37,929 nucleotides of DNA. It comes from a virus. This document shows, piece after piece, positions 2,819 through 35,806 of the stretch; within the stretch, counting starts at the first letter, position 1; every line of letters starts with the position of its first letter. The stretch is from positions 1 through 37,929 of IMG/VR virus record IMGVR_UViG_3300044995_000156; one strand, 5' to 3'. Under the pieces are notes generated by a model. It had not been told where the DNA came from and searched no databases. It saw only the letters and a list, made by a program, of their open reading frames with translations. A program made the translations under genes and the position numbers.

Positions 2819-3895
2819 GTGTCCCAGGTTCTCGATCCTGTGCTCTACGATGCTCTCCTTCAGAGGTTTGGTCGGGTCCGTGTCGCCAACGCTGGGGTCC
2901 AGGCGACCTGCCGTGTTCTTCCGGACGGAAGAATTTTCGTGGACCATTGGGGGGAATGTTACGAAGTTTGCTGCCCGAAGTGTGGAGATACGCGTTTTCG
3001 CCTGCGCTTTTCTCATCTCTTTCGTCAGCATCGCTTTCTGGTCTATTGCTTCAACGAGAACTGCTTTCAATCCCCTGAATGTCGGCAGCAGATTTGGAGT
3101 TATGTTTTCTCCAAAGGCTCGTTTCGCGGATTCGGCTCTGGAGAAGAAGAAGTTCCGTCTTTTTCAAGCCTCGTGCCTGCTTTTGTTGAGGACCTTTCGA
3201 CTTGGGATCCGCTGGCGGATTTTCCGGTTATCCAGCCGCCCCGTTCTCTGGTTTTGCTTTCGTCTTTGCCGTCGTTCCATGCTGCGAACTATTACCTGAC
3301 TGCACGCGGCTTCGACGTGGTTGAGCTGGCTTCTCTTTACCAAGTTTCTTATTGCGAGTCGTATCCGCAGTTTCCGCAGTGTCAGTGGCGGATTTTCATT
3401 CCGTTTCTTCTCTCCGGGCGGCTCATCGGCTGGCAAGCTCGGTTTGTTGGAGAGCGGAATTGGAAGTTCAGTTCGGCTCCGAAGTACTACCACATGCCGG
3501 GATTTCGTAAGAGCCGTTACCTTTACAACTACGATCAGGCCAAGACCTCGGATCTTATCGTGGTGGTTGAAGGGGTGATGGATGCTTGGCGGATCGGCCC
3601 AGAGGCGGTGGCCGTTATGGGGCACCGGATTTCTCGCTACCAGGCGGAGCTTTTGCGTCGAGCCAACAAACCGGTCGTTCTCTTTTTCGACCTGGATGTC
3701 TCTGAGGCTGACCTCGAAAAGGAGCGTTCGACTCTCTTTCAGTTAGCGGGTGTTCCTGTATTCTCCGTTCCGTTTCGGCGGTACCTTTTGGAGTCTCAGC
3801 TTCCCCAAGAGTGGGATGACCCAGCGGCCTTGCCGCGGGCAGTGTGTTGGGAGTGGATCAGCCGCGCCCTTCAGGAAGGTTCTCGGCATTCTTGA
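2819..3895 (+). CDS. DnaG-like primase with zinc-binding and TOPRIM domains
   Basis: This 358-residue protein would make RNA primers for phage DNA replication. A zinc-ribbon-like segment has CPKCGD with C52 and C55, then C77 and C82 (YCFNENC). The TOPRIM core has VVEGVMDAW with catalytic E251, then the metal-binding FFDLD with D291 and D293. It is shorter than cellular DnaG and has no C-terminal helicase-binding domain that I can see; a separate helicase gene lies just upstream. The start is placed at GTG 2819 because a GGAGGAG ribosome binding site ends about 6 nt before it; the in-frame GTG at 2813 overlaps that site. The polymerase gene follows 14 nt after the stop. Confidence 0.85.
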   Translation: MSQVLDPVLYDALLQRFGRVRVANAGVQATCRVLPDGRIFVDHWGECYEVCCPKCGDTRFRLRFSHLFRQHRFLVYCFNENCFQSPECRQQIWSYVFSKGSFRGFGSGEEEVPSFSSLVPAFVEDLSTWDPLADFPVIQPPRSLVLLSSLPSFHAANYYLTARGFDVVELASLYQVSYCESYPQFPQCQWRIFIPFLLSGRLIGWQARFVGERNWKFSSAPKYYHMPGFRKSRYLYNYDQAKTSDLIVVVEGVMDAWRIGPEAVAVMGHRISRYQAELLRRANKPVVLFFDLDVSEADLEKERSTLFQLAGVPVFSVPFRRYLLESQLPQEWDDPAALPRAVCWEWISRALQEGSRHS

Positions 3896-3909
3896 TCAGG
3901 AGGTCGGAA

Positions 3910-6900
3910 GTGAGCGAGTTTTTCCGTCAGATTTTCCCGTCGTGTCATGACGACTCGAAGGTCGGGATTTTGTGTCCGTCTGCCCTCGATTGGTCCGGTT
4001 TGCGTAAGGACTACCCCTATGTCCGCTTTCAGGAGTGTGCTTGGTTATCCCCTCCAGGACCAGGGTTTTCGGCTTATGCTTCGACTTTGCTTCAGGAGTA
4101 TTCCCTTTTGCCTCCGGAAAGCGATGTCGGCAAAGGCAAAGCGTTTTCGAGTCAGAGAGCCTACAAAGCCCACTGTCAGGCTCTCCTCCGCGATCTGTCT
4201 GATCGTCTGTACTACCAGGCTCTCTATGACGATGCGTTTGCTTTGCCGATTGTTTGGGAAGGCACCCACGTTCTGGCGCGGTATGTCCTCGGGCATCGCT
4301 GGGGGTATGTTCCCGACGGACCGCGTCCGGTTACGGTGATGATTGTCGGAAAGTGTCCCGGTCCGGAGGAAGCTGCGAAGTGTCGCAATTTTGTAGGCCG
4401 GTCTGGCCTCTACACTCGCCAGGTCCTGCAAGAGTTGGGTCTGTCTCCTGACGAGTTTGATGAGTGGTACGTTACAAACCTCTGTCGCTTTCCTGTTCCT
4501 GAGTCTGCCAGAGTTGTTCCCGGAAATTGGATCAAAGATTGCTTGCCCCTTTTGCAGCAGGAGCTTTTGCTCTGTGCTCCCCGTCTGATCCTGGCTTTTG
4601 GCAATGAAGCGATTGGCTACTTCCTGGGACGTGGACGTAACTTCAAGCATGTCCACGGGCGCAGCTACGAGTATACCTATCGCCGTCCGCTTTTTCGTGC
4701 GGGCGAGATTTCCGATTGGGTGGAGCATACAGCTTTGGTTGTTCCCTGTGTCCATCCGGCAGCGGTTTTGCGCGATCCGAATCTGGCAAGTCTATTCAAG
4801 AAATCTCTGTCTTTGGCCCTCAACATCCTAGAAGGAAAGTCCTCATCGTCTTCTTCAGCTTTGGTTTCGACAGATCTTTCGGTGCGTCATTACCTGGTTT
4901 CGTCGACAGAAGAGCTGAGTCGTTTGTGTCAGTACCTTTCGGAGCATAAACCACGAGCTTTAGCCATTGATACGGAGTTTACCGGGCCGACGCCTCTTTC
5001 GGGCCAGGTTGTCTCGATTCAGTTTTCTTGGGAAAGAGGTCAGGCAGCGATTCTGGCTTTGCGCGATGAGTCACAGCGTTGGACTTTCTCCGGAACTCAG
5101 GAACAGATCGTTTCTCTCTTGTCGCCTTTCCTAGAAGATCCAGACATTCGTCTGGTTTTCCATTACGCCTTAGCGGACCTTTGGTGGCTGGAAGATTTCG
5201 GTCTGATTTTTCCGCTCGATAAGGTCATGGCTCCTCTCGATGATGACGCTCCCGATGGGTATCAAACGTTCTTTGGTTGGCAGAAGACTTTCTGGACCGG
5301 GCCGTTCGATACGATGTTAGCTGCTCATGCGGTCAACGAGACTTCCGAGTTCGATCTCAAAGAGCAGGCGATCCTGCACACGTCTTTGGGTAATTATTCG
5401 TATCGTCTCCAGGAATGGATGCGGGCCAACCGGGGTAAAGTCAAAGAGAGCGGTTTCGGGGCTTGTCCTCGCAGTATCCTCTTTGGCGAAGCTATTTCGC
5501 AGACCCCGTTTGGGTCCTTGGTGCGTTCGAGCTATGCCGGGTTTGACGCGGATGCTACCTATCGCCTCTTTGAGGTTTACAACGCCAGCCTTCTCGATTG
5601 CGATCGTTTCGGTCTGTGTTGTCGTATTCCGTTCTGGATTTCCCTTCGAGCTTCGACAGCGTTCTACGAGATGCACAAGACTGGACTGGCGGTTGATCTT
5701 GAGCGGGTCCAGCTTTTGTCGGCCCAGTATCGAGAAGCTTTCGCTCGTCTGCTGGCCGATTTTCGTTCCGAGATTGCTTGGCCTGATTTCAATCCCAGCA
5801 GTATCGATCATTGTCGAGAATTGCTCTTTGGCGAAGAGTACAACGGCAAAGTTGATTCTCAGACGGGTTCGCCACTGCGATTGCGTCCTGCCGAGGCTCT
5901 CTCCTTGCGTTTGCCTCCTTACAAAACGACTGGCAAACGTTCCCAGCTCTGGGAGAAGCGGCGGGACCTCAAGGCTTTGCCAGCAGCCGACAAAGAGACG
6001 CTCGAAGTGCTCAAGGCGAAGAGTTCCTACATTCAGAAGTTGTTAGACCTGCGTTATGTGGGTCAGGTCCTGCGTTATGTGCTAAAGGTTGAAGAGGCTT
6101 CTCTGTCTTCTCTTGTATTGGATGATTCGCGGTCGTCTTCCTCTTCGGTTCGGTCCGCTTCCGGGATGCTTTCCTTCTTGCAGCCAGATGGCCGTCTCCA
6201 TACCAAGTTTTCCCAGACCAAAAAGACGGGTCGGGCGTCCTCGTGGGATCCGCCACTCCAGAACCTGAGCAAGAAGCGAGAACCGGATTACCAGCGTATT
6301 CTCGGGGAACGGTATACTTACCCACTTCGTTCAGTTCTGCGGGCTCGTCCTGGGCATGTTCTCATCTCGGCGGACTATACCGGAGCGGAACTCCTGGTGA
6401 TGGCGATCCAGGCTGGGGATCGCTCGATGATTCAGCACTGTTTCAGCTCATCTCTCCCAGAGAAAGGCTACACCCTCGAAGGCGACCCATGTCCCCACGG
6501 GAAAGGTGCGGCTTGCGAAGAGTGCGTCTATCCGCATCCCTACTTCTACGACATTCACAGCAATGTGGCGATTGCTGCTTTCCGTCCTCGAGATCCGAAC
6601 GGTAAGCTCATCCCATCAGGACGCTTGGCGAAGTTCTACTTGTCCAAATATGGGCTCAAGCACCTGCGCGATTCGGCCAAGCCCGTCGTGTTCGGTTATG
6701 CTTACGGTATTTCCGTCGATACGGCGTATCGGCGTATTCGAGAGGTAGTGGCGTCAGTCACTCGTTCTGACGTAGAAAGTATCATCAAGAACTTTGAGCG
6801 CCTCTACCCGGCTCTGACGCACTATTTCCCCCAGGCTGCCGAACGGGTTTTCAAACCTGGGTATATCGTCAACTGTTTCGGGCGCTATCGACGTATTCCG

Positions 6901-7368
6901 GAGAACTTGGACTACTCGAATCAGTCGCTCATCTCAGCGTTGCAGCGGGAGTTCATGAATTTTCCCATTCAGTCCGCCATAGCGGATGCGATGAGCACAG
7001 CGATGGCAAACTTGCAGGAGTATCGCATTGCGTACAACATGAACTATCGTCTGGTACTCCAGGTCCACGACGATGTGGTGGCGGAGGTTCCTTTCGAGGA
7101 AGCCGTGCGCTATTACAAAGAAGTCATCCCCTATTGTCTCCAGGAGAAAGTTCCTATCTTTCCGACCGATTTCGACGGGAATCTTATCTACGATCCAGCA
7201 GCGCCTTACCATCTGTCCCCGAACCGCTCGATCTACGTGCACTGGGGCGAAGAGTTGACTGAAGAAACCGCCCGCGCTTATGGTGTTCCCGAGGAAATTG
7301 TCGCCCTGTCGCAGTCGGAAGCCTTGTCCGAATCGGGCGCTATCGACTGGGCGGATGTCGAAGATTAG
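3910..7368 (+). CDS. Family A DNA polymerase with UDG-like and 3'-5' exonuclease domains
   Basis: This 1,152-residue protein is the likely replicative polymerase. Residues about 140-305 resemble a uracil-DNA glycosylase: VGKCPGPEE near 146, FVGRSG, and VHPAAVLRD with H282. The 3'-5' exonuclease has Exo I D354/E356, Exo II D423 and Exo III GFDADATYR near 546-548. The polymerase has motif A SADYTGAEL (D822), motif B R920-xxx-K924-xxx-F928-GYAYG, and motif C VHDD (H1053, D1054, D1055). The Cys pairs of family 4 UDG iron-sulfur clusters are not obvious, and the first motif has K and C where E and A/G are usual, so the glycosylase may be altered or inactive. An insert between motifs A and B carries C861, H863, C869 and C872, a possible zinc site. 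GTG 3910 is chosen because AGGAGG lies 6 nt upstream; an earlier in-frame start at 3844 would overlap the primase. Phage SPO1 polymerase has a comparable N-terminal UDG-like domain. Confidence 0.92.
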   Translation: MSEFFRQIFPSCHDDSKVGILCPSALDWSGLRKDYPYVRFQECAWLSPPGPGFSAYASTLLQEYSLLPPESDVGKGKAFSSQRAYKAHCQALLRDLSDRLYYQALYDDAFALPIVWEGTHVLARYVLGHRWGYVPDGPRPVTVMIVGKCPGPEEAAKCRNFVGRSGLYTRQVLQELGLSPDEFDEWYVTNLCRFPVPESARVVPGNWIKDCLPLLQQELLLCAPRLILAFGNEAIGYFLGRGRNFKHVHGRSYEYTYRRPLFRAGEISDWVEHTALVVPCVHPAAVLRDPNLASLFKKSLSLALNILEGKSSSSSSALVSTDLSVRHYLVSSTEELSRLCQYLSEHKPRALAIDTEFTGPTPLSGQVVSIQFSWERGQAAILALRDESQRWTFSGTQEQIVSLLSPFLEDPDIRLVFHYALADLWWLEDFGLIFPLDKVMAPLDDDAPDGYQTFFGWQKTFWTGPFDTMLAAHAVNETSEFDLKEQAILHTSLGNYSYRLQEWMRANRGKVKESGFGACPRSILFGEAISQTPFGSLVRSSYAGFDADATYRLFEVYNASLLDCDRFGLCCRIPFWISLRASTAFYEMHKTGLAVDLERVQLLSAQYREAFARLLADFRSEIAWPDFNPSSIDHCRELLFGEEYNGKVDSQTGSPLRLRPAEALSLRLPPYKTTGKRSQLWEKRRDLKALPAADKETLEVLKAKSSYIQKLLDLRYVGQVLRYVLKVEEASLSSLVLDDSRSSSSSVRSASGMLSFLQPDGRLHTKFSQTKKTGRASSWDPPLQNLSKKREPDYQRILGERYTYPLRSVLRARPGHVLISADYTGAELLVMAIQAGDRSMIQHCFSSSLPEKGYTLEGDPCPHGKGAACEECVYPHPYFYDIHSNVAIAAFRPRDPNGKLIPSGRLAKFYLSKYGLKHLRDSAKPVVFGYAYGISVDTAYRRIREVVASVTRSDVESIIKNFERLYPALTHYFPQAAERVFKPGYIVNCFGRYRRIPENLDYSNQSLISALQREFMNFPIQSAIADAMSTAMANLQEYRIAYNMNYRLVLQVHDDVVAEVPFEEAVRYYKEVIPYCLQEKVPIFPTDFDGNLIYDPAAPYHLSPNRSIYVHWGEELTEETARAYGVPEEIVALSQSEALSESGAIDWADVED

Positions 7369-7386: not shown

Positions 7387-7400
7387 TTGCTACGTAGCAA
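7387..7400. promoter_or_regulatory. 14-bp palindrome TTGCTACGTAGCAA, copy 1
   Basis: This is a perfect 14-bp palindrome in the gap between the polymerase and dCTP deaminase genes, 18 nt after the polymerase stop. Allowing one mismatched pair, the symmetry extends outward to GATT/AATC (about 24 bp). Identical cores occur at 25036 and 34752. The form suggests a binding site for a dimeric regulator. It is not a terminator, because no T-run follows on either strand. Confidence 0.6.
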
Positions 7401-9960: not shown

Positions 9961-11238
9961 ATGCCGCGTAAGAAGAAAGCTCGTCAGCCGACGATTTCTG
10001 ACTTTTTCCAAGAGCGACTCAAAGAAGTCCAGGCCCGTCAGGGGACTCCTGGGGTTTTTCTAGGGCAGGATGCGGAGAGGGTTGTCATCGGCATTCCCCT
10101 TCCGGCGTTTTCTTTGCAGTATCTCTACTCGGCCAATGTCTATCCTCTGGGACGGATGGAGATGCTCATTGGCGAGTCGGATAGCTGCAAGACGGCGTTC
10201 CTCTTTGAGAAGGGGCGCTGGTTTCTATCCACTCCCGGAGGCGGGTTTGTCTACCTTCTCAACGAGGCCCGTGACCCAGCAGCCCTTCGCTCTTCGATCA
10301 TTGGCGAAGATCTCCTTTCCGATGGCCGCTTTGTCTTGGAAGGACCTTGTGAGTCGATGGAAGATTGGCAGCGGCGGATTTCTCACAAAGAGTACGGTTG
10401 GCTCCGCAAGCTCGAAGCAGTCCATGAAGAGATCGGCGACTGTGCGTTTCCTTTCCTACTTGGTCTCGATTCGATTACTGGAACGACCAACGAGAAGACC
10501 ATCGCTTCCATCGATGAAGCCGGGCATGCGTCCATTAGCTTTGCCCAGGACGCCAATCTCCTCAATCAATATGCTAAGTACCTGTTCCAGCGCCTCTATC
10601 CTTGGCCGGTCTCTTTTGTTTGCACCAATCACATCAAGTATGGCCAGGACCGTTACGGCAACCGGGTTATGCGCATTCCTGGAGGCGATGAGCTGCGCTA
10701 TGTCAGCACCTATATCGTTCTCCTCAAGCACGTCAAAGACATCGAGCGTACCTCGGTCGATGGCGGACGGCGTATTCGTTTCGAGACAGTCAAGACGATG
10801 GGAGACCGAAGGATTATTGAAGCCGAGTTCCTCTGGCTTTATAACCAGCACCAGGTTCCGCAGAAGTCCTGGTGGGACTGGCATTCCGCCTCGACCGAGC
10901 TTCTCCTTTCCCTCTCTTTGTCCTATCCCGAAAAGCTTCAGGACATTCTGACTTTTCCCACGGTTTACAAGAACCAGAGGTCGTGCAGTTGCCCGGAGTT
11001 GGGTCTACCTAAGCCTGCCCCCTATGCTGAAGTTGGTGCGGCCCTTATGGACCCGCAGAATGAGAAAGTTTTGCAGGCGCTCCAAGATCGTCTCGGGATC
11101 AGGCGTTATCGACTTTTTGAGTTCGGGATTTCCTACCGAGGGCAGCAAGAGCGGGCCCTTGCCGAGGGAAGTTTAGAAAGTGAGTCTCCAACCAGAGAGC
11201 CTTCCGATGGCGAGCCTACCTCACTTCCAGCCGACTGA
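9961..11238 (+). CDS. RecA/RadA-like recombination ATPase
   Basis: This 425-residue protein of the RecA-like ATPase fold would drive strand exchange or act as a recombination mediator. The Walker A is GESDSCKT (G71 to T78, K77), where Cys replaces the usual glycine before the lysine. The Walker B-like strand is FLLGLDSITG, and IPGGDELRYVST with VCTNHIKYG matches the RecA region that follows. The N-terminus is basic (PRKKKARQP). After about residue 330 the C-terminal part is unlike bacterial RecA. ATG 9961 is preferred because the protein reads naturally from it; the ribosome binding site (GGGG) is weak and a TTG start at 9862 is possible. The last 59 nt overlap the next ORF. Confidence 0.75.
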   Translation: MPRKKKARQPTISDFFQERLKEVQARQGTPGVFLGQDAERVVIGIPLPAFSLQYLYSANVYPLGRMEMLIGESDSCKTAFLFEKGRWFLSTPGGGFVYLLNEARDPAALRSSIIGEDLLSDGRFVLEGPCESMEDWQRRISHKEYGWLRKLEAVHEEIGDCAFPFLLGLDSITGTTNEKTIASIDEAGHASISFAQDANLLNQYAKYLFQRLYPWPVSFVCTNHIKYGQDRYGNRVMRIPGGDELRYVSTYIVLLKHVKDIERTSVDGGRRIRFETVKTMGDRRIIEAEFLWLYNQHQVPQKSWWDWHSASTELLLSLSLSYPEKLQDILTFPTVYKNQRSCSCPELGLPKPAPYAEVGAALMDPQNEKVLQALQDRLGIRRYRLFEFGISYRGQQERALAEGSLESESPTREPSDGEPTSLPAD

Positions 11239-17187: not shown

Positions 17188-17217
17188 AAATTCTGCCTGT
17201 AACCGCGTCATTATAAG
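17188..17217 (+). promoter_or_regulatory. Bipartite promoter-like site P1
   Basis: AAATTC (17188-17193), an 11-nt gap, then GCGTCATTATAA (17205-17216), with TATAAG serving as a -10 element. The same two blocks with the same gap occur at three other places in the window. It lies 10 nt after the resolvase stop and would drive the gene at 17309. Confidence 0.65.
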
Positions 17218-17219
17218 TT

Positions 17220-17254
17220 GCCGGTGCTTTCGGGGTGCACCGGCTTTCTTTTTT
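17220..17254 (+). terminator. Rho-independent terminator overlapping the P1 start region
   Basis: GCCGGTGC (17220-17227) pairs with GCACCGGC (17237-17244) and is followed by TTTCTTTTTT. It would end transcripts coming from the resolvase operon. The expected P1 start (about 17223-17224) is inside the left arm, so P1 transcripts should not form the full stem. Confidence 0.75.
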
Positions 17255-17308
17255 GTCTATTCGGCAAGCGCTCGACCCCGAACGCGCTTGCCTTTTGGAG
17301 GACCAAAT

Positions 17309-18193
17309 ATGTCCACCACCACCACCACCCACGCTACCTCCGCCACTGCTCCCTCCCGCATCGATTGGGCTCGGGAGAGGAAGCGCATGGGTGAGGCAGT
17401 CCTACTGGCGCTCCCCCGGGGCGACAAGCCACTGCCGGAAGGGCAACGGATCGTCCCAGCTGGGGACGTTCTGCTCTTGAGTCTAACCCGACGGCCCTTC
17501 CCCCGATTGGCTGAAAGGAAGGGCCTCACAAACCCGGTGGGCGTTTTCCTCTCCGGATACGTGTTCCGAGAGGGCCAACCAGAAAACGTTCTGTTCTTTG
17601 ACCTTTCCCTCGAGCCCCGTAGTGGTGCCTACGGGCGGGCGTTGGACACGGAGCGACACCGGACCTTGATCGACTCGGTATCCCGGATGCGGGCCGCTAG
17701 CGAGAAGTGCTCTTGGACGGAGCTGTCCAGTTTATTCCTCGCCCGTGGGTCGGCGCGTCTCGATATTCAGGCTTGTCGGGATGCGCTCATGAAGAGACTT
17801 ACCCCGAAGAAGAATGGCCGAATCGTGGATATCCACGAGGAGGACGGGGAGATACTGATCGGAATCGGTCAGGAGGGGGAGCAGATTGACGAAGTACTTG
17901 TAATTCCGGTTGAGCTTCGCCAGAATCTCCGTCCTTGGGTCGTCCCCGGGAACCGGGTCAATGCCCCGGTTGTCCGACACCTGTCGGACAGTGACGTGGT
18001 CAAGATGTGTCGACTTCTTTACGAAGAAGGCGACTACATCAGGCTGCGATACCTGTCGAAGAATGGTACGCTTCCTCCAATAGCTGCCTTGGACGTATCT
18101 CTGTTTGAGGCTCCGAGAATCGTTTCTCCGGAGTCTCTCGAGGTTCTTGGTCTGTGGAATCTTTCCCCGCGCTTCCAGGCTTTTCTCGGCTAA
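17309..18193 (+). CDS. Hypothetical protein, independently promoted
   Basis: I do not recognise this 294-residue protein. It starts with a Thr/Ala-rich segment (MSTTTTTHATSATAPS), followed by a globular body with alternating charged and hydrophobic segments and no enzyme motif I can name. ATG 17309 has GGAGG about 7 nt upstream. The gene uses C-ending codons more than its neighbours, and it is bounded on the left by a terminator and its own promoter P1, so it may have been acquired separately (a moron-type cargo gene). That origin is inference. It is followed after about 120 nt by the Ser/Pro-rich gene, with no terminator between. Confidence 0.75.
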   Translation: MSTTTTTHATSATAPSRIDWARERKRMGEAVLLALPRGDKPLPEGQRIVPAGDVLLLSLTRRPFPRLAERKGLTNPVGVFLSGYVFREGQPENVLFFDLSLEPRSGAYGRALDTERHRTLIDSVSRMRAASEKCSWTELSSLFLARGSARLDIQACRDALMKRLTPKKNGRIVDIHEEDGEILIGIGQEGEQIDEVLVIPVELRQNLRPWVVPGNRVNAPVVRHLSDSDVVKMCRLLYEEGDYIRLRYLSKNGTLPPIAALDVSLFEAPRIVSPESLEVLGLWNLSPRFQAFLG

Positions 18194-25024: not shown

Positions 25025-25831
25025 GTGTCCACTTTTTGCTACGTAGCAACATTCGTATTTTCTCTTTTGCATCTTAGTGTTTACCTCTCCCTTTTCTCTG
25101 GTTTATCCAGCCCGCGCTGTTGGTATCGAGACGAGTGCGAAAACCGTTTGCGTCTTCTCATCGGCGAATTGCGGCATACTCCGGACTACGGTCGCTCTTC
25201 GTCTCTCCTACGCCTTTTAGGTTGGCATTCTTTTTGTCATCCTGACCCAGAAGTCCGACACCGAGCTTCTCGTCTTTATCGTTCCCACTGGGCCGGTTAC
25301 CCAGATTGGGTCTTAGCTTCTGCTCCTCCTTATTTACCTTGGCTAGATACTCTGCCAAATCCGCCTCTTGTTGTTCAGGCAGCTTCTGTCTATTTCTCAG
25401 CTCAGCCTCTGCCGGTTCCAACGCTTTCCTTGTCCGTGACCCATATGGGGTCGCTCTACCCGGAGTATTACTTCGAGCATTTGCGGGCTTACTTGGGTCA
25501 CGCTAATGATCTGTTGCTCTATCGCCAGCGTGAGAAAGATCCGTATGCAGATTACTTGCGCATCGAAGAGGATCGCATTACTTTGCCCGTTCCGTTCCAG
25601 CTCGGTTCGTTCTACGGCAAAGAGTCGGCTTTCCTGCCTTACCGTCTGGCATCGTACTTTTACCTCAAAGACATGATTCGGGACGGGACCTTGTCCGAGA
25701 CCGACTTTCGCCTCTATATTGTCTTCTGTCAGCTTCTCGAGGCCATGTTCTGGGATTCTCGAGATCCGATTGATTGGAACCGACCGGCTTCAGCTTCTTT
25801 GCTTTCTCTTTCCTACCGACCTGGACGTTGA
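25025..25831 (+). CDS. Hypothetical protein
   Basis: I do not recognise this product (268 residues from GTG 25025). The N-terminal 30 residues read like a membrane or signal segment (FVFSLLHLSVYLSLFSGL), but codons 4-9 are made of the TTGCTACGTAGCAA element, so the real start may lie downstream, for example at a TTG. From about residue 33 the protein looks soluble, with many Arg, Tyr, Leu and Pro residues, including YPEYYFEHLRAYLGHAND and a C-terminal helical part. A GAGG about 8 nt before the GTG supports that start weakly. Confidence 0.6.
   Translation: MSTFCYVATFVFSLLHLSVYLSLFSGLSSPRCWYRDECENRLRLLIGELRHTPDYGRSSSLLRLLGWHSFCHPDPEVRHRASRLYRSHWAGYPDWVLASAPPYLPWLDTLPNPPLVVQAASVYFSAQPLPVPTLSLSVTHMGSLYPEYYFEHLRAYLGHANDLLLYRQREKDPYADYLRIEEDRITLPVPFQLGSFYGKESAFLPYRLASYFYLKDMIRDGTLSETDFRLYIVFCQLLEAMFWDSRDPIDWNRPASASLLSLSYRPGR
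25036..25049. promoter_or_regulatory. 14-bp palindrome TTGCTACGTAGCAA, copy 2
   Basis: The core is identical to copies 1 and 3. It lies 67 nt after the stop of the 24153 gene and 11 nt into the next ORF. It shares with copy 1 the same orientation of flanks (TTT before, CA after). Confidence 0.55.
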
Positions 25832-27902: not shown

Positions 27903-27935
27903 ACTGCAAAACCCCCAGGCATCCTTGCCTGGGGG
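27903..27935 (-). terminator. Terminator of the - strand small-peptide unit
   Basis: CCCCCAGGCA (27912-27921) and TGCCTGGGGG (27926-27935) form a 10-bp stem with a TCCT loop. On the - strand the stem is followed by TTTTGC and, further on, by nine Ts. On the + strand no T-run follows, so it should end leftward transcripts. Confidence 0.7.
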
Positions 27936-27982: not shown

Positions 27983-28066
27983 TTAGAGGATCCACAGCAG
28001 CTTCAAATTCAAGAGAAACGCGGTTATCAGCCATAACATCAGAATCAGCCCTACCAACGTGGCCAT
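27983..28066 (-). CDS. Tiny hydrophobic peptide (27 aa), candidate toxin-like or membrane peptide
   Basis: This ORF is too short for ordinary gene finders. It encodes 27 residues starting MATLVGLILMLWLITAF and ending in LLWIL; nearly all residues are Leu, Ile, Trp, Val, Ala, Met or Phe, with one Lys and one Asn, so it should be a single membrane-spanning helix. The AUG at 28066 is preceded by a perfect AGGAGG (28079-28074) with a 7-nt spacer. A bipartite promoter (28168-28140) lies upstream and a strong terminator (27935-27903) lies downstream, giving a transcript of about 230 nt with a 66-nt leader. Small hydrophobic peptides of this size include type I toxins (Ibs, Ldr, TisB-like), superinfection-exclusion peptides and accessory lysis proteins. 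No antisense RNA over it is evident, so its function is open. Confidence 0.6.
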   Translation of the reverse strand: MATLVGLILMLWLITAFLLNLKLLWIL

Positions 28067-28139
28067 CTCTGGTCCTCCTGGGTTTGCGGCGCTTGAATCC
28101 ACCTGGAACGTTGGTGCGCCGAACTACCACCGCTCCAAG

Positions 28140-28168
28140 TTATAATGACGCAATTTCCGGAGGAATTT
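28140..28168 (-). promoter_or_regulatory. Bipartite promoter-like site P2 (leftward)
   Basis: On the - strand, AAATTC (28168-28163), 11 nt, then GCGTCATTATAA (28151-28140). The -10 is TATAAC and the expected start is near 28132. It drives the hydrophobic-peptide ORF. After the -10, a weaker imperfect stem (TGGA and GGTG with CACC and TCCA) begins two nt downstream. Confidence 0.65.
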
Positions 28169-28206
28169 ACGAGTGATTCCTGTTTGCCTCCATTTCTAGA
28201 GTCCAG

Positions 28207-28236
28207 AAATTCACCCAGAAAATGCGTCATTATAAT
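28207..28236 (+). promoter_or_regulatory. Bipartite promoter-like site P3 (rightward)
   Basis: AAATTC (28207-28212), 11 nt, then GCGTCATTATAA (28224-28235), giving a consensus TATAAT -10 at 28231-28236. It is divergent from P2; the two -35 blocks are 38 nt apart, so one regulator could act on both. It would transcribe the pseudoknot RNA and the small ORF at 28331. Confidence 0.68.
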
Positions 28237-28239
28237 CTG

Positions 28240-28320
28240 GTCCTGGTTTGCTTGTACCAGGACGCAGCCCGATTGTTTTAGCAGTGGCGCAATCGAGGCT
28301 GCTTTTTTCCTGCCACTGCG
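28240..28320 (+). ncRNA. Structured RNA: hairpin plus H-type pseudoknot with T-run
   Basis: Hairpin 1 pairs 28240-28247 with 28256-28263 (8 bp). Stem 1 pairs 28264-28275 with 28290-28302 (12 bp with a bulged A at 28296). It is followed at once by TTTTTT, so alone it is a textbook terminator. Its loop holds GCAGTGGC (28281-28288), which is fully complementary to GCCACTGC at 28312-28319. Pairing gives a sterically sensible H-type pseudoknot, with a 5-nt loop crossing the 8-bp stem and a 9-nt U-rich loop crossing the 12-bp stem. It could be a short regulatory RNA, a conditional terminator or the leader of the small ORF at 28331. No known RNA family was recognised. Confidence 0.55.
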
Positions 28321-28330
28321 GGGAGCGGTC

Positions 28331-28426
28331 ATGAACTATTTCTTTGTTCTCGGAGCCCAAGACAAGGAAATGGCAAAACCGGGACATACGGCGACCCCGA
28401 AAGGGGCTTCGCCGGTGGGTACCTGA
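28331..28426 (+). CDS. Possible small protein (31 aa)
   Basis: This 31-residue ORF reads MNYFFVLGAQDKEMAKPG and continues to a KGASPVGT C-terminus. A GGGGAG ribosome binding site lies 5 nt upstream of the ATG, directly after the pseudoknot. The second half overlaps a very stable nested hairpin (CGGCGA and CCCC-GAAA-GGGG with TCGCCG, about 28389-28413), so this part of the RNA may be under structural rather than coding selection. It might also be the remaining 5' end of a truncated gene. A terminator follows the stop by about 12 nt. Confidence 0.35.
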   Translation: MNYFFVLGAQDKEMAKPGHTATPKGASPVGT

Positions 28427-28437
28427 GTTGATAACGA

Positions 28438-28469
28438 AGAAGAGACGGAACGGAGTCCGTCTCTTTTTT
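28438..28469 (+). terminator. Rho-independent terminator
   Basis: AGAGACGGA (28441-28449) pairs with TCCGTCTCT (28456-28464) and is followed by TTTTT. It ends the rightward P3 unit and lies 20 nt before the 3' end of the convergent - strand gene, for which it could also serve, although the T-run on that side is poorer (TCTTCTTC). Confidence 0.8.
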
Positions 28470-28489
28470 CGCTATGCGCCTTTCAGTTT

Positions 28490-28903
28490 TTAGCCTGAAG
28501 TACCTTGTATGTTTTTCTGCTCCTTTCTTGTGAGGTCAATTAGTTCCTCCGGAAGTTGTCCGAGTTTGACACGTTCTCGAGTCTCAAGTGCTACCATGAT
28601 ATTCCATGCAGCAGCCCGGAGGTGATCTTCGTCTTCCTCTCCAGAGAGGAACTGAAACAAGTGCCTCAGTCCGGAGTCTATGAACCAGGACAACGGCATA
28701 CCCTTTTCCCAGTTCCTCTCGCCGTATTTTTTCGCTCCGATCTCGAATTGGAGTGCGAGCTGTCTTAGGGCGAGTGGGGGTAATAAATCGAATCGCCCTT
28801 TACCGTCTCGGCTGTCTCGAATCGCTCCATACGGTGTTTGTCTTTGGCTGCTGTCTTTCTTTGGTCCTTTCTTCTGGTCTTTCCTCTTTGTACGTCCTTT
28901 CAT
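28490..28903 (-). CDS. dATP/dGTP pyrophosphohydrolase-like protein (DUF5664)
   Basis: This 137-residue protein is the only sizeable gene on the - strand. After a basic N-terminus (KGRTKRKDQKKGPKK) the core has RFDLLPPLALRQLALQFEIG, AKKYGERNWEKGMP and SGLRHLFQFLSGEEDEDHLRAAAWNIMVAL. These match the DUF5664 helical domain, called the dATP/dGTP diphosphohydrolase N-terminal domain and related to MazG/MazZ nucleotide pyrophosphatases, with the HL...H...AAWN metal and helix motifs. It would remove selected purine dNTPs or modified nucleotides. The AUG at 28903 has GGAGAG about 5 nt upstream; a longer frame upstream lacks a ribosome binding site. It diverges from the AAA+ gene. Confidence 0.8.
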   Translation of the reverse strand: MKGRTKRKDQKKGPKKDSSQRQTPYGAIRDSRDGKGRFDLLPPLALRQLALQFEIGAKKYGERNWEKGMPLSWFIDSGLRHLFQFLSGEEDEDHLRAAAWNIMVALETRERVKLGQLPEELIDLTRKEQKNIQGTSG

Positions 28904-30532: not shown

Positions 30533-30571
30533 TTTGTCCTGGTCTGTTTCCGACTCTGCCTCTTGCTGATT

Positions 30572-30642
30572 GGAAAGGAAGCCGGTAAGATGTCAGAAAT
30601 TGGTGCGTAGCTCGTGGCGTCTGACGGCTTCCTTTCCTTTTT
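30572..30642 (+). terminator. Long terminator hairpin after the AAA+ gene
   Basis: GGAAAGGAAGCCG (30572-30584) pairs with CGGCTTCCTTTCC (30625-30637) over 13 bp and is followed by TTTTT. An inner stem (GTCAGA with TCTGAC) and a 7-nt bulge extend it. It is larger than a normal terminator, so it may also be a regulatory leader for the DUF1257 gene. Confidence 0.7.
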
Positions 30643-34751: not shown

Positions 34752-34765
34752 TTGCTACGTAGCAA
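34752..34765. promoter_or_regulatory. 14-bp palindrome TTGCTACGTAGCAA, copy 3
   Basis: The core is identical to copies 1 and 2, but the flanks match copy 1 in reverse orientation. The symmetry extends to CAATT/AATTG, apart from one mismatched pair. The site ends exactly where the -35 block of promoter P4 begins (34766), the expected place for an activator or repressor. Confidence 0.65.
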
Positions 34766-34795
34766 AAATTGCCGTTGCTGGCGCGTCATTATAAA
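34766..34795 (+). promoter_or_regulatory. Bipartite promoter-like site P4
   Basis: AAATTG (34766-34771, one change from AAATTC), 11 nt, then GCGTCATTATAA (34783-34794), with TATAAA as the -10. It would drive the five-gene group 34871-37868. The palindrome copy 3 abuts its -35 block. Confidence 0.65.
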
Positions 34796-34831
34796 CTGAC
34801 GGCGGTTTTCGCCGTCAGTCGGTTCGTTTTT
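34795..34831 (+). terminator. Hairpin with T-run overlapping the P4 start region
   Basis: ACTGACGGCG (34795-34804) pairs with CGCCGTCAGT (34810-34819), loop GTTTT, followed after 7 nt by TTTTT. As at P1, the stem starts at the end of the -10 element. The T-run is displaced, so efficiency may be lower than at P1. Confidence 0.6.
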
Positions 34832-34870: not shown

Positions 34871-35806
34871 ATGAGCGACCAGAAGCAGGAAACCTACGGA
34901 CCTGATTCGTTTCCTGTGATCTTTGAACATCGGTTCCTCGGCAGAAGACCAGGAAATAATCTATTCGAGTTGGAGGTAAAGATCTTCGTACAGAATGCCG
35001 ATCGGCTGGGTTTATATTATATTTGTCGCAATGCCTATCCTGACATTTTCGAGATCGGTTCTCCTCTTTCTTACGACGACCTTGTTTTCCTGTTGGACGA
35101 TGTGAAGCCGTGTTTGGATGTCTCTGATATTGACTGGATGGTCCGAGATCCTGCCTGCGCCAAGCAGGTCTTCTCGCAGTTTCCGACGTGGCCTGATGGA
35201 GCGAGTAACTATACTAAGATGAATGTAATCGTGTCTTCTTACCGATCAACGGCGTACAAGCCATTGTCGTACTTCTCGGTGTTTTTCTTCAAGCCAAATC
35301 AGATTGAGCCAGAGATTTGCCGTCTTTGTGACGACCGCAGCAACTGTCTGCGCTTTGCCCGGCGCGAAGAAGTTTTCTACTACGGCAGTGGCTACGGTAC
35401 GCGCGGGCATTTCCTGATGTCGAAGCACCAATTGCCGGAAGAGCAGATGCGGGAGGTCTGCGAGAGACTCTTCTTGAATCGGGTGACTTTCGGCAGGGTG
35501 ATGTTCTTGCCGGTGGGTTATACGGTCCGCTACGGGTTGTGGACCTACGATCAAATGGAGTCGTTCTTGGGTTTCCTGAGAAACCAATGCCGGAAAGTAG
35601 CCGGTAATTTGTATCGCTATCTGTCCGAAAACCAGGAAATGGAGGCGAAACAAAAGGTTCAGGAACAGTTCCGGCCTTCCGAGTTTGTCAATGAACTGGC
35701 TCTAGGTCCTGGCGAGGAGGGTCGAGTACGCAAGATTCGTCTCTATGATCTGCCCGGTGAGGAGTGGCTTTCTTCTGTCCATCAAGTCTCAGGAGAAATC
35801 GTATGA
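34871..35806 (+). CDS. Hypothetical protein, possible Cys metal site
   Basis: I do not recognise this 311-residue protein. It has mixed alpha/beta character; a CRLCDDRSNC segment (about residue 155) could bind zinc or iron, and the C-terminal third is charged and helical (NQEMEAKQKVQEQFRP). ATG 34871 follows AGGAGG and lies about 70 nt downstream of the expected P4 start. It is the first gene of the P4 unit. Confidence 0.7.
   Translation: MSDQKQETYGPDSFPVIFEHRFLGRRPGNNLFELEVKIFVQNADRLGLYYICRNAYPDIFEIGSPLSYDDLVFLLDDVKPCLDVSDIDWMVRDPACAKQVFSQFPTWPDGASNYTKMNVIVSSYRSTAYKPLSYFSVFFFKPNQIEPEICRLCDDRSNCLRFARREEVFYYGSGYGTRGHFLMSKHQLPEEQMREVCERLFLNRVTFGRVMFLPVGYTVRYGLWTYDQMESFLGFLRNQCRKVAGNLYRYLSENQEMEAKQKVQEQFRPSEFVNELALGPGEEGRVRKIRLYDLPGEEWLSSVHQVSGEIV

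Follow-up and report, generated by a model that had tools for sequence, protein, structure and literature searches.

A phage-specific promoter-like motif and a candidate attenuated leader RNA with loop-to-downstream pairing in an uncultivated phage

The virus record IMGVR_UViG_3300044995_000156 belongs to a large, uncultivated phage lineage and is a fragment of the genome; the whole stretch of 37.9 kb (37,929 nt) that was analysed is referred to as the window. A helicase, a UDG-PolA fusion, a primase, a UvsX-like recombinase, a portal protein and ThyX are encoded in it. The fusion protein (3892-7368) is a family A DNA polymerase that carries a uracil-DNA glycosylase domain fused at its N-terminal side. 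The proteins shared with a 138-kb collinear relative (contig G001) are mostly 23-40% identical to their counterparts, and a further set of relatives comprised 43 loci fetched by portal alignment (35-46% portal identity).

Several short repeats were also recorded. A 16-bp palindrome, GAGTAA[C/T]GCATTACTC, occurs in about 45 copies at gene boundaries in L007-L013 (contig IMGVR_UViG_3300047585_000208), many of them directly 5' of a Shine-Dalgarno site. A different palindrome, TTGCTACGTAGCAA, has three copies by gene boundaries in the window (7387-7400, 25036-25049 and 34752-34765), and the contig end (37863-37929) carries TATCCTGAG in tandem repeats.

The element studied here sits in a 600-bp intergenic gap, downstream of a plus-strand glycosyltransferase-like gene (end 27887); on the other side of the gap lies a convergent dATP/dGTP diphosphohydrolase-like gene (28490-28903, minus strand). 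The features of the gap are the following.

27912-27935, minus strand: terminator hairpin of the minus-strand unit, followed by TTTT
27983-28066, minus strand: ORF for a 27-aa hydrophobic peptide (MATLVGLILMLWLITAFLLNLKLLWIL) in the divergent unit, with a strong AGGAGG Shine-Dalgarno sequence
28136-28168, minus strand: divergent copy of the promoter-like motif, an exact match, which would drive the minus-strand unit
28207-28239, plus strand: promoter-like motif AAATT-N12-GCGTCATTATAA-NYTG, with AAATT as -35-like and TATAAT as -10-like element and G28239 as putative start
28239-28470, plus strand: predicted structured RNA of 232 nt, from start to terminator (z-score -6.5 with 200 shuffles; first for structure among 377 same-length plus-strand windows)
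28240-28263, plus strand: hairpin 1 of the predicted fold, 8 bp, at the putative 5' end
28264-28302, plus strand: hairpin A, terminator-like, 12 bp, with a bulged A28296 and a 14-nt loop (28276-28289)
28281-28288, plus strand: 5' strand of the candidate second pseudoknot stem (GCAGTGGC, in loop A; p 0.002)
28303-28308, plus strand: T6, the U-tract of the terminator, which also makes up most of the 9-nt crossing loop (U-tract score 4.4, high)
28306-28325, plus strand: hairpin B of the nested fold, a competitor of the pseudoknot in which GGGGAG (28320-28325) is covered
28312-28319, plus strand: 3' strand of the candidate second pseudoknot stem (GCCACTGC)
28331-28426, plus strand: 31-codon ORF (MNYFFVLGAQDKEMAKPGHTATPKGASPVGT), a doubtful gene with a weak Shine-Dalgarno-like GGGGAG upstream
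28336-28373, plus strand: hairpin C of the predicted 232-nt RNA
28377-28429, plus strand: hairpin D, with a GAAA apical loop
28436-28469, plus strand: terminator hairpin that closes the unit and on which the minus-strand gene 28490-28903 converges

The promoter-like motif emerged from TATAATGACG, which is found five times in the window without a mismatch; inspection of these copies gave the discrete element AAATT-N12-GCGTCATTATAA. This element occurs in four exact copies, the next best match in the window having 5 mismatches in 17 positions, and all four continue directly with N-Y-T-G. The chance expectation for such matches is about 1e-7. The distance from AAATT to TATAAN, 17-18 nt, is promoter-like. 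Compared with a sigma-70-type promoter (TTGACA/TATAAT, 16-18 nt), a -10-like TATAAN is present but AAATT stands in the place of the -35 hexamer, and a promoter scan of the window did not report the element. The two copies outside the gap are also followed by hairpins.

17188-17220, plus strand: motif copy upstream of gene 17309-18193, an exact match
17220-17244, plus strand: terminator-like hairpin with loop TTTCGGGGT, then TTTCTTTTTT (U-tract score 4.48)
17263-17292, plus strand: hairpin B of the parallel leader, with loop ACCCCGAA (17275-17282; p 0.004)
34766-34798, plus strand: motif copy upstream of gene 34871-35806, an exact match, followed by a hairpin at 34798-34816

Both downstream genes, 17309 and 34871, have strong Shine-Dalgarno sites. 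The motif copy at 34766 is adjoined by the TTGCTACGTAGCAA copy at 34752. In the gap, the two divergent motifs form a 34-nt inverted repeat (82%; 28135-28240); their similarity extends to parts of the spacer, which is otherwise not conserved, and each motif faces its own unit, closed by a terminator. Counted from the conserved G, a hairpin begins at nucleotide 1-2 in all four putative transcripts, compared with a background of 19%. A promoter, previously undescribed and of a phage-specific class, and a structured RNA following it can both be assumed fairly firmly; as judged from the sequence, the promoter would be active and would start transcription at the conserved G.

The motif is absent from the 43 portal relatives and from the collinear contig. 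Three viral matches to it elsewhere each stand alone as a single match and are not followed by an evident hairpin. Neither similarity searches of phage DNA nor exact-pattern searches of viral and genome contigs found homologues of the leader. As to known RNA families, the Rfam/Infernal check that had been proposed for the element gave no match at the gathering score in the window (4227 families), and relaxed thresholds gave only weak, sub-threshold matches in the region; one of them, to the SR6 antitoxin, was rejected (E 0.058, opposite strand, 24 bits vs 55 required).

From 28239 to 28469 the predicted fold is a succession of hairpin domains with few unpaired bases between them. Homologue searches with the 31-aa ORF found no relatives, and its codon usage is unlike that of genes (lowest 9% of in-frame gene segments). 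The lack of relatives and the weak Shine-Dalgarno sequence make a translational role doubtful.

Hairpin A begins 25 nt into the putative transcript. The original prediction described a 12-bp stem followed by six Ts, whose loop is complementary over 8 nt to sequence just past the T-run. All of this is found at the coordinates given: GCAGCCCGATTG (28264-28275) pairs with CAATCG-A-GGCTGC (28290-28302), T6 follows the stem directly, and the loop octamer GCAGTGGC is the exact reverse complement of GCCACTGC; the bulged A had been missed, and the octamer pairing can be extended by one G-U pair (28289/28311). With its G+C-rich bulged hairpin of 12 bp and the U6 that follows, hairpin A has the sequence of an intrinsic terminator, and early termination near 28308 is expected because the U-tract is strong.

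The geometry is that of an H-type pseudoknot, with eight perfect pairs and the predicted loop lengths of 5, 1 and 9 nt. However, a competing hairpin had been missed: the nested minimum free energy fold pairs 28306-28313 with 28318-28325 (hairpin B) in place of the pseudoknot. The energies were estimated by hand with the generally known Dirks-Pierce and pknotsRG pseudoknot penalties, under which the pseudoknot amounts to -34.3 and -30.4 kcal/mol, respectively; the best nested fold reaches -30.5 kcal/mol, and the first stem plus hairpin B -27.1 kcal/mol. On these estimates the pseudoknot would be competitive with the nested fold, not clearly dominant over it. Geometry and energy thus allow the pseudoknot; with relatives that carry neither the motif nor a comparable pairing, it is supported but not proven. 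The two states appear close in energy, as a switch would need. The original prediction had suggested a switch or a stable small RNA; this fits the upstream promoter motif, the high degree of structure and the downstream terminator, and the switch itself is something that we infer.

How unusual is the octamer pairing? Shuffling of the 28 bases downstream, with hairpin and loop kept unchanged, yields an 8-nt complement of loop A in 0.2% of cases, and the element is the best hairpin with loop-to-downstream pairing in the whole window, on either strand. Window-wide, about one 8-nt loop complement per strand to sequence within 70 nt is expected by chance, and shuffled windows give about 0.17 comparable objects (stem of at least 12, pairing of at least 8) per strand, so that the pairing taken alone is only moderately unusual. 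It gains weight from its promoter context and from a second instance at 17220. Two other candidates were set aside: an 8-nt loop complement at 10190 falls within a coding gene, and an 11-nt loop complement (30560/30627) was rejected as a parallel case, being an ordinary long hairpin terminator. The latter belongs to a long interrupted hairpin with T5 (30560-30642), 3' of an AAA ATPase gene.

In the leader at 17220, which, like the promoter motif, the original prediction had overlooked, loop TTCGGGGT (17229-17236) is complementary at 8/8 positions to loop ACCCCGAA (p 0.004), and the hairpin that carries the latter stands directly before GGAGG and the ATG at 17309. The logic is the same, as loop-loop pairing, and the letters are unrelated to those of the 28239 leader. 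No loop pairing follows the hairpin at 34798-34816, and the minus-strand leader (28136) has only a 6-nt loop match (p 0.036); thus, 8/8 loop pairing is found in exactly the two leaders with a strong U-tract. The change of letters with retention of pairing between these two leaders may be regarded as covariation between paralogues, and offers the only covariation-like support. It is the best evidence for a selected pairing, and it consists of two cases that were found after looking.

What the sequence itself shows is the motif in its copies, the complementary stretches and an excess of structure; the following course of events could connect them. The promoter at 28207-28239 would start an RNA at about 28239, in which hairpin 1 would be followed by hairpin A and U6 acting as an early intrinsic terminator, or attenuator. 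A stop at U6 would release an RNA of about 70 nt with two hairpins. If the polymerase proceeded beyond the U-tract, loop A could pair with 28312-28319, as an H-type pseudoknot or as a loop-loop contact; this pairing would exclude hairpin B, which otherwise would hide the GGGGAG that precedes the short ORF and the remainder of the 232-nt RNA ending at 28469. The same plan, in different letters, would underlie the leader at 17188-17309. Consequences of this scheme would be termination, pairing in vivo and effects on translation or on RNA stability. Our main reading, an attenuated phage leader or noncoding RNA whose read-through form contains an H-type or loop-loop pairing, is given a probability of roughly 40%, and the odds that the pairing of loop A is functional are about even.

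A more far-reaching reading, which we regard as rather doubtful, is that of a private promoter class all of whose transcripts start with a hairpin, some of them carrying a terminator hairpin with a loop matched to a site ahead of the next gene. On this reading a regulatory RNA module would recur at several promoters of one genome, and it would be its architecture and its private loop pairing that define it, and not its sequence.

The strongest alternative, a serious contender although below even odds, accepts the promoter and the structured RNA as real and takes the 8-nt pairing as chance, hairpin A being a terminator or structural hairpin and hairpin B the one that forms. Cases of the same size do arise in shuffled windows, the nested fold and the pseudoknot are of about equal stability, and such pairing is missing both at 34798 and in the relatives, where none of 78 terminators (portal relatives plus the collinear contig) has a loop complement of at least 7 nt. 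However, chance would have to explain why 8/8 pairing recurs at a copy of the promoter that was defined independently, with p values of 0.002 and 0.004 for the two leaders.

It is improbable, in our estimation, that hairpins 1 and A form an early polymerase-modifying RNA of the type of HK022 put, or a Q-type antitermination site, the loop pairing being secondary. The two stem-loops, which abut each other and occupy 63 nt immediately at the start site, would suit this explanation, as would a terminator placed straight after a promoter, as in PR'/tR' of phage 21 (PMC6606751), but there is no sequence or Rfam match, and the leaders at 17220 and 34798 are devoid of two abutting long stems.

Still less probable is the explanation that the motif acts at the RNA level, as a nut- or processing-like site placed before terminators, instead of being a promoter. 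The motif indeed always precedes a hairpin, in two cases with a U-tract; however, the promoter-like spacing of AAATT and TATAAN argues against it, and so does the minus-strand unit of the divergent pair, which would be left with no other visible promoter.

Finally, a type I toxin-antitoxin-like locus in the layout of tisB/istR, with the divergent 27-aa peptide as toxin and the plus-strand RNA as antisense antitoxin, is very improbable: the units are divergent, the peptide is of membrane type with its strong AGGAGG (family searches with MATLVGLILMLWLITAFLLNLKLLWIL gave no match) and hairpin 1 pairs piecewise with the 5' UTR at -25.5 kcal/mol, but this pairing is at chance level (p 0.05; generic duplex energies with no length limit did not discriminate in this test), and the two RNAs share no contiguous complement of at least 9 nt.

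If the attenuated-leader reading is true, this would be a leader design in which one hairpin serves as early terminator and also contributes one side of a pairing by which the read-through RNA is reshaped. Paralogous leaders would then keep their pairing without keeping their sequence, and searches by sequence or covariance, such as Rfam, would miss such cases. The promoter motif would moreover permit the mapping of transcription starts in a large group of uncultivated phages. The components (terminator, H-type or loop-loop pairing, 5' hairpin and attenuation) are known, and their combination with a private promoter class amounts at most to a new variant; a search of the literature available to the analysis found no clear precedent for a terminator hairpin with such a loop-to-downstream pairing.

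With respect to known systems, H-type pseudoknots control ribosome access in the T4 gene 32 leader and in the SAM-II and preQ1-II riboswitches. These likewise place a crossing stem beside a possible ribosome-binding site, with a U-rich crossing loop, but here stem 1 is a terminator hairpin and the downstream ORF is doubtful. In the divergent type I toxin-antitoxin loci tisB/istR, zor/orz and dinQ/agrB, as here, a gene for a small hydrophobic peptide is divergent from a structured RNA; however, the antisense stretch that defines them is absent from this locus.

Stem-loops at the 5' terminus stabilise mRNAs such as ompA and papA (works cited in PMC3997798), and the four putative transcripts share with them a hairpin at the 5' end, at nucleotide 1-2. 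In lambdoid phages dependent on Q antitermination the order is the same as here, an intrinsic terminator lying directly after the promoter, as in PR'/tR' of phage 21 (PMC6606751), but neither a Q gene nor a Q-binding site was identified in the window, which is a genome fragment. The put RNAs of HK022 are about 70 nt long and consist of two stem-loops, putL lying just downstream of its own promoter (PMC9378689). The putL and putR sites resemble the present element in having tandem stem-loops of about 65-70 nt directly after a phage promoter (PMC9378689), here the abutting stem-loops 28240-28263 and 28264-28302; no sequence relation was seen, as judged by Rfam and phage-DNA searches alone. Unlike put, the element described here has a terminator U-tract and a pairing of the loop with downstream sequence.
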